Assembly: GCA_002898575.1 (NCBI GenBank)
Contig: BEHT01000009.1
Span: forward strand, 1 to 64,000
From: a bacterium HR17
GTDB lineage: Bacteria > Armatimonadota > Fervidibacteria > Fervidibacterales > Fervidibacteraceae
Length of the DNA stretch: 64,000 bases
Reading direction: 5' to 3'
Under the pieces are notes generated by a model. That model worked only from the letters and a program-made list of their open reading frames with translations. It ran no database searches and had not been told where the DNA came from. A program made the translations under genes and the position numbers. Positions within the stretch are counted from its first letter, which is position 1. Every line of letters starts with the position of its first letter. Shown piece after piece: positions 47,369-48,992 of the stretch.

Positions 47369-48992
47369 CTGATGGAGAGTTTGATGGTGGCTCAGGGCGA
47401 ACGCTGGCGGCGTGGATAAGGCATGCAAGTCGAGCGCAGGCTTGCCTGCGGGTTCTGCTCGCAGGCAGGTGCTGAGCGGCGAACGGGCGAGTAACGCGTG
47501 CCTAACCTACCCTGGAGACCGGGATAACCCTGGGAAACTGGGGCTAATACCGGATACGCTCCCTCGTCGCATGGCGGGGGAGGAAAGGTGCCTGTTCCGA
47601 AAGGGCAGGTGCCGCTCTGGGATGGGGGCGCGTCCCATCAGGTTGTTGGTGGGGTAACGGCCTACCAAGCCGATGACGGGTAGCCGGCCTGAGAGGGTGG
47701 CCGGCCGCACCGGGACTGAGACACGGCCCGGACCCCTACGGGGGGCAGCAGCCGAGGATCTTGGGCAATGCCCGAAAGGGTGACCCAGTGACGCCGCGTG
47801 GGGGAAGAAGCCCTTCGGGGTGTAAACCCCTGTTGGCGGGGGAAGAAGCCGGCTCTTCGGGGCCGGTTGACGGTACCCCGCGAGAAAGCCCCGGCTAACT
47901 CCGTGCCAGCAGCCGCGGTAATACGGAGGGGGCGAGCGTTGCCCGGATTTACTGGGCTTAAAGGGTCCGTAGGCGGTGTCCTAAGTCCTCCGTGAAAGCT
48001 GCCCGCTTAACGGGCAGAGGTCGGGGGAGACTGGGACACTTGAGGGCGGGAGAGGCCAGCGGAACGGCGGGTGTAGCGGTGAAATGCGTCGATATCCGCC
48101 GGAACACCAGTGGCGAAGGCGGCTGGCTGGAACGCCCCTGACGCTGAGGGACGAAGGCCGGGGGAGCGAACCGGATTAGATACCCGGGTAGTCCCGGCAG
48201 TAAACGTTGGGCGCTAGGTGTGGGGAGCTTCGACCCTCCCCGTGCCGCAGGGAAACCAATAAGCGCCCCGCCTGGGGAGTACGGGCGCAAGCCTGAAACT
48301 CAAACCAATTGACGGGGGCCCGCACAAGCGGCGGAGCATGTGGCTTAATTCGATGCTACCCGAAGAACCTTACCAGGGTTTGACATGCTGGCGCAAGCCT
48401 GCCCGAAAGGGTGGGGTGGGACGGTTTCTGCCGTCCAGCCAGCACAGGTGGTGCACGGCTGTCGTCAGCTCGTGCCGTGAGGTGTCCGGTTAAGTCCGGC
48501 AACGAGCGCAACCCCCGCTGCCAGTTGCCAACGGGTAATGCTGGGCACTCTGGCAGGACTGCCCGCGTAAGCGGGAGGAAGGTGGGGATGACGTCAAGTC
48601 CGCGTGCCCCTGAAGTCCTGGGCTGCACACATGCTACAATGCCCGCTACAAAGGGTTGCGAACCCGCGAGGGGGAGCGAATCCCAAAAAAGCGGGCTCAG
48701 TTCGGATCGCAGGCTGCAACTCGCCTGCGTGAAGACGGAGTCGCTAGTAACCGCCGGTCAGCAATACGGCGGTGAATACGTTCCCGGGCCTTGTACACAC
48801 CGCCCGTCACGCCATGGAAGCCGGCTGCACCTGAAGCCGGTGGGCTAACCGGCTGCCCCTTTGAGCCTACCGGGGGTCTCCTCGGTGGGTTGAAAGGGGC
48901 AGCCGGAGGCAGCCGTCTAGGGTGTGGCCGGTGACTGGGGCGAAGTCGTAACAAGGTAGCCGTAGCGGAAGCTGCGGCTGGATCACCTCCTT
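47369..48992 (+). rRNA. 16S ribosomal RNA
   Basis: Landmarks in order: AGAGTTTGAT (47376), GTGCCAGCAGCCGCGGTAA (47903), ATTAGATACCC (48175), CAATTGACGGG-like site (48304), TTGTACACACCGCCCGTC (48792), AAGTCGTAACAAGGTAGCCG (48943), and the anti-Shine-Dalgarno end GGATCACCTCCTTT. The length of about 1624 nt exceeds E. coli (1542); helix 44 and the V1 region look extended. The bases equivalent to E. coli 18-19 and 916-917 differ from nearly all bacteria but still pair (see findings). First gene of a linked 16S-Ile-Ala-23S-5S operon. Confidence 0.97.

Follow-up and report, generated by a model that had tools for sequence, protein, structure and literature searches.

In one family of the Armatimonadota, helix 2 of the 16S central pseudoknot has very probably undergone an inherited rewiring, fully compensated and fixed in the family's ancestor. 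The gene in question lies in the window, the whole 64,000-nucleotide stretch of DNA that was analysed. Positions were numbered by alignment to the 1542-base E. coli 16S gene (L109). As an aside, a 16S copy in E. coli strain SWYHX138.33gt (297-1816 of L108) has 1520 bases, 22 short of 1542. The window gene reads UGGU at 17-20 (47385-47388) and ACCA at 915-918 (48304-48307), and all four pairs are Watson-Crick. The three helix 2 pairs are U17-A918, G18-C917 and G19-C916, and E. coli has TCA at 17-19 and TGA at 916-918. An earlier note on this DNA had claimed TGG and CCA at these places with the pairs U-A, G-C and G-C. The alignment shows its letters, coordinates and pairs to be correct. The near-universal C18-G917 is absent from the window; it is C-G in 35/35 comparison rows, a set that leaves out six rows with helix-2 variants. 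Most relatives in the phylum have UCC/GGA or UCA/UGA. Relative to UCC/GGA both pairs are fully inverted from C-G to G-C, and all four bases are altered.

Table 1. Features of the window, in window coordinates; 16S bases and pairs carry E. coli numbers
Feature	Position	Strand	Observation
Helix 2, 5' strand (E. coli 17-19)	47385-47387	+	TGG in place of TCC/TCA
Helix 2, 3' strand (E. coli 916-918)	48305-48307	+	CCA in place of GGA/TGA; partner of 47385-47387
U20	47388	+	Flanking pair with A915 (48304) kept
Helix 1 (E. coli 9-13/21-25)	47377-47393	+	Unchanged; five pairs the same as in the 35 comparison rows
U317-A336 to C317-G336	47711 and 47730	+	T-A in 34/35 comparison rows, gap in one
G570-C866 to U570-A866	47958 and 48255	+	G-C in 35/35 comparison rows; both family members have U-A
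C862-G867 to G862-C867	48251 and 48256	+	C-G in 34/35 comparison rows, G-C in one
U943-A1340 to C943-G1340	48332 and 48740	+	T-A in 35/35 comparison rows
Leader hairpin CAAACTCTCC-TGAT-GGAGAGTTTG	47360-47383	+	Sequence and minimum-energy fold
Complete rRNA operon	16S 47369-48993, tRNA-Ile, tRNA-Ala, 23S 49455-53222, 5S 53323-53439		Preceded by an enolase gene

The 16S gene is on the forward strand and is a full-length match to RF00177 (model positions 1-1533, 1461.4 bits). It is the single 16S match in its genome (3.15 Mb, 75 contigs), the whole assembly having been searched, and the contig that carries the operon is 85 kb long.

The swap is common to two genera of the family. G003 (SKYB36, locus L002), which belongs to another genus, has both halves, UGG and CCA, in a 16S gene 87% identical to that of the window. 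G001 (SKW126), of the window's own genus, has the UGG half; its contig ends there (L019), with 94.6% identity over 129 bases. No 16S was matched in G002, which is also of the window's genus, or in G004, which is of the same order. Across 291 Armatimonadota genomes the 5' pattern was matched in 199 and the 3' pattern in 110, counted with exact flanks, so genomes with differing flanks or an unassembled 16S fall outside these numbers. G18 stands in such flanks in four of the 291, G000, G001 and G003 (with G19) and G062 (with C19), and C917 in three, G000 and G003 (CCA) and G062 (GCA).

Function of the swapped helix

Helix 2 is the pairing of 17-19 with 916-918. It is described as required for initiation and as mutation-sensitive (PMC8201178, PMC5329695). 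In the family it would connect the 5' and central domains as in other bacteria, and with helix 1 it would form the pseudoknot that initiation needs. We argue that complementarity outweighs base identity at 18-917 and 19-916. A C-G pair could then be converted to G-C, or to U-A, provided both sides change. The intermediate would have been mismatched or rapidly repaired, on a long branch with other changes in deep pairs. The isolated duplexes score -2.5 kcal/mol for UGGU/ACCA, -2.7 for UCCU/AGGA and -0.5 for UCAU/AUGA. Loss of RbfA distorts the central pseudoknot in E. coli (PMC8201178). The gene for this protein was found in 9/10 genomes tested, the one miss being G001, which is 61% complete; in G000 and G003 its frame is unbroken. 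Since the window duplex scores within 0.2 kcal/mol of UCC/GGA and RbfA is present, the ribosome probably functions normally with the swapped helix. The swap may well be near neutral.

The deep changes in the family go beyond helix 2. The branch that leads to the family is long (0.36 in the tree). Among 739 columns that are near-invariant in the 35 comparison rows, 17 are altered in both family members. Ten of these make up five compensated pairs: 18-917, 317-336, 570-866, 862-867 and 943-1340 (Table 1). The pair names beyond helices 1 and 2 are those we take to apply, checked by covariation among the compared rows. The seven columns outside these pairs are 47, 361, 395, 448, 451, 768 and 1242. 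Columns 47 and 361 went from C and G to G and A, column 395 took its G-C pair with 46 to G-U, and 448, 451 and 768 (A to G) changed as well. Column 1242 changed together with 1295, to C-G.

Pairing at helix 2 in other bacteria

Compensated variation in helix 2 is known. What the window holds is another variant, rare and one of several such re-pairings. The earlier note had called the helix almost invariant. That is right for 18-917 and wrong for 19-916, which is often variable, A-U or C-G (PMC5329695), and is mismatched in a few assembled genes. According to Poot 1998, as cited in PMC5329695, E. coli ribosomes with 19C-916G have more than 80% activity and those with 19C-916U have 30%. A19-G916 is tolerated by E. 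coli, and C19-U916 impairs (PMC5329695). The covariation between A19-U916 and C19-G916 (PMC5329695; Poot 1998 cited there) resembles the window swap in being compensated, in lying in the same helix and in having pairing as the conserved property. However, there 18-917 remains C-G and the third pair alone varies, whereas the window has 18-917 itself turned round to G-C, alongside a third pair that is G-C too. Another likeness at 18-917 is the U18-A917 form (UUC/GAA, in G304 and one G130 gene), in which this pair is altered on both strands as in the window. It differs in that C-G became U-A by transitions; the window went from C-G to G-C by transversions on both strands, and the next pair changed with it. 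The U18-A917 form is also in bifidobacterial variants of the 27F primer. Literature searches for the swap or for its pair numbers showed no report of a natural G18-C917 swap among the papers they listed.

Scanning 84,980 species genomes turned up 28 stretches with G18 in strict flanks (GAGTTTGATGNTGGCTCAG). The larger number counts genomes scanned rather than genomes with a readable 16S 5' end, and the window genome is possibly outside it. There is 16S evidence for 12/28 of these loci: nine by Rfam, to which 19 loci were submitted, one that is a full 16S (L002), and two that match 16S by BLAST (L004, L021). The swap is rare, then, as the earlier note had it, and the claim that it is compensated stands. 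It is no oddity of this one organism: relatives within the family share it, and elsewhere helix 2 has been completely re-paired in other ways. Three more loci (L003, L006, L010) lie at contig ends and resemble the beginning of a 16S gene. Five matched 16S neither in Rfam nor by BLAST and were taken as chance (L005, L012, L022, L028, L029); the pair of sites read at L029 is false. Eight others were taken as chance on BLAST alone (L007, L011, L013, L016, L018, L020, L023, L026). In six MAG loci (L009, L015, L017, L024, L025, L014) G18-C19 stands in a 16S gene that is cut short by the end of its contig. Their labels are Bacilli or the same family as one such, with one Prevotella.

The re-pairings take different forms. 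G062, from another Armatimonadota family, has UGC/GCA. Among Bacteriovoracales-like genomes, UGU/ACA is found in G292 (MAG CoA8_C15.2) and UUG/CAA in G496, G510, G479 and G518. In 97 sampled genomes of the order around G292 the 5' site was matched in 32; UGU was read in G292 and in G302, the Bacteriovoracaceae MAG of L003 in the same order, and UUG in five. The 3' site was matched in 20/97, with ACA in G292 and CAA in the same four UUG genomes. The tree clusters G292 with the four UUG rows (99/96), and this cluster is nested among UCC/GGA kin. BLAST shows no 16S similarity for a CAA at a 3'-type site in G482 (L100). Among 146 genomes sampled from one Bacilli family, G18 was found in 2/100 genomes with a 5' match, G293 and G295, whose partner side falls outside their assemblies, and C917 in 0/53 with a 3' match. 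Two divergent Armatimonadota 16S genes (L054 in G019, L055 in G005) read UCCC and GGGA; here C20-G915 replaces U20-A915 and is paired.

How strictly is pairing kept? In all 74 of the distinct 16S sequences in which both sites match, each of the four pairs is Watson-Crick, and seven states occur: UCC/GGA in 59, UCA/UGA in six (two of them E. coli), UUG/CAA in four, UGG/CCA in two, and UGU/ACA, UGC/GCA and UUC/GAA in one each. This count covers loci in hand. It leaves out L088, whose two matching sites are chance (no 16S similarity), as well as L054 and L055, which are too divergent, and L053, L056 and L058, in which the two sites were not both readable. In Armatimonadota genes crossed by hand, contig by contig, among the matches listed (up to G206), 18-917 is paired in 72/72 and 19-916 in 68/72. 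Both the 74 sequences and the 72 genes are non-random samples of bacteria. No broken 18-917 pair was seen among genes read on both sides.

The exceptions at 19-916 are two contigs of G105 (A19/G916 and C19/U916), G137 (A19/G916) and G107 (C19/U916). The genes of G105 (L158 and L159, on C10 and C12) and of G137 (L161, on C57) are probably chimeric assemblies because their two ends have different nearest relatives by BLAST. The mismatch in G107 (L160, on C239) may be real because both ends of the gene are nearest the same relative (89% and 92% by BLAST). Compensation at 19-916 is not absolute, and this counts against our explanation. Few parts of the ribosome are as conserved as helix 2, and the natural compensated inversions show that pairing is constrained more than base identity. 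They are also ready-made variants for tests of pseudoknot folding.

Origins of the swap

The G18-C917 pair may have had one origin, with inversion of 19-916 to follow, or two origins. A stepwise history in which 18-917 inverted in the common ancestor of the family and G062, and 19-916 inverted later in the family, is conceivable, and we are doubtful of it. It does have exactly the intermediate state it needs, in G062. The altered G47 and A361 are common to the family, G062 and L050, and the AU test does not reject a grouping of the family with G062 (p 0.20). However, the best tree puts G062 with L050, which is UCC/GGA, with a support of 88/95 and apart from the family, and the rows nearest the family by tree path are f15. 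It must be noted that this tree has a long branch (L050) and an odd letter make-up in the two family rows.

Fixation of the double inversion in the family ancestor, which we prefer, need not make UGG/CCA unique to the Armatimonadota. The 16S of Candidatus Kryptonium thompsonii reads GAGTTTGATGGTGGCTCAG at its 5' end, that is UGG, and the remainder of the gene is N. The published Kryptonia probe site falls in the bases after this match. In 391 sampled genomes of the Kryptonium class the 3' pattern was matched in 145, and CCA was found in at least two of these. One, L150, is 16S. The other candidate, L149, has no 16S similarity. L150 has C916-C917 and is without its 5' end. C916-C917 in the Kryptonium class most likely arose separately from that in the Armatimonadota family, since L150 is close to UCC/GGA members of its class (89-90% identical to two of them) and keeps G570-C866. 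C862-G867 and U943-A1340 are retained as well, unlike in the family. We lean towards the view that the UGG/CCA double inversion had independent origins in two or more distant groups, the Armatimonadota family and Kryptonia or close kin.

One can imagine that the swap is an adaptive change tied to hot habitats. Kryptonia have been found only in high-temperature springs (PMC4737851), Kryptonium reads UGG and a member of its class has C916-C917. We think this improbable, for the usual UCC/GGA scores as stable on paper and the other swapped lineages have different pairs. Transfer of 16S sequence between the Armatimonadota and Kryptonia or their kin is more improbable still. UGG is common to both, an Armatimonadetes lineage, which may not be the window's, is the best-correlated companion of Kryptonia (PMC4737851), and a quick tree does not formally reject one clade (p 0.09). 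The identity of L150 to UCC/GGA members of its class and the three pairs it keeps speak against transfer. That the 16S is an artefact of assembly or binning, for instance a chimera, is hardly credible: the genome is a draft of 75 contigs, 16S genes in such drafts are often cut at contig ends (as at L019) and three chimeric-looking genes occur in two further genomes of the phylum, but the same letters recur in the separate genomes G003 and SKW126, the two halves match each other across a distance of about 920 bases, and the gene sits within a complete operon, after an enolase gene, on a long contig.

Primer sites and the rest of the operon

A compensated swap at 18-917 puts mismatches in two primer sites at once because 27F and 907R/926R occupy the two strands of helix 2. 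The in silico comparison used primer letters that we assume to be the usual ones. Against the window 27F has two internal mismatches, which stand 8 and 9 bases in from the primer's 3' end, and 907R and 926R have two each, 9 and 10 bases in from theirs. The target sites of 27F and 907R in the window, with two each, exceed one internal mismatch. There is no mismatch to the window in 341F, 515F-Y, 785R, 806RB, 1100R, 1391R or 1492R; the relative L051 has one further mismatch each to 1391R and 1492R. The earlier warning that amplicon surveys may miss this organism is therefore borne out for 27F and 907R/926R and not for 341F, 515F, 785R/806R and 1492R, which match. The risk depends on the primer. 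One structural event mismatches two common primers, and this makes a simple rule for lineages that some PCR surveys may miss.

Blind spots of this sort have been described from hot springs. With V6-V8 primers, 92% of Armatimonadetes and 100% of Kryptonia were missed through primer mismatch, and a blind spot is noted to be specific to its primer set (PMC9039060). Mismatches hid these lineages (PMC4737851, PMC9039060), and the window has primer mismatches as well. The V6-V8 forward primer 926wF spans 916-917 and, as printed in PMC4737851, would have two mismatches when read against the window; Kryptonium has UGG at 17-19, like the window. The V6-V8 blind spots may be linked to helix 2. However, in the available parts of PMC4737851 and PMC9039060 the mismatches are not attributed to a compensated helix-2 swap, and the Armatimonadetes there may not be those of the window. 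If UGG/CCA did have independent origins, helix-2 swaps would count as a cause from which some taxonomic blind spots could be predicted, and would provide a search mark for metagenomes.

Two other features of the operon deserve mention. The 16S leader (47340-47383) folds into two adjoining hairpins, the second of which covers the start of the 16S. This second hairpin (Table 1) has a 10-pair stem that covers the 16S bases up to G15 and is an alternative to helix 1. It may be a helical switch of the E. coli type (Dammel and Noller). A tie between this hairpin and the helix-2 swap was considered and dropped, as L051 and L019 fold without the same hairpin in minimum-energy folds; we claim no link. 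Within the 23S gene is a group I intron (51541-52242; RF00028, 64.8 bits), and in it is a LAGLIDADG endonuclease reading frame of 155 aa (51743-52210).
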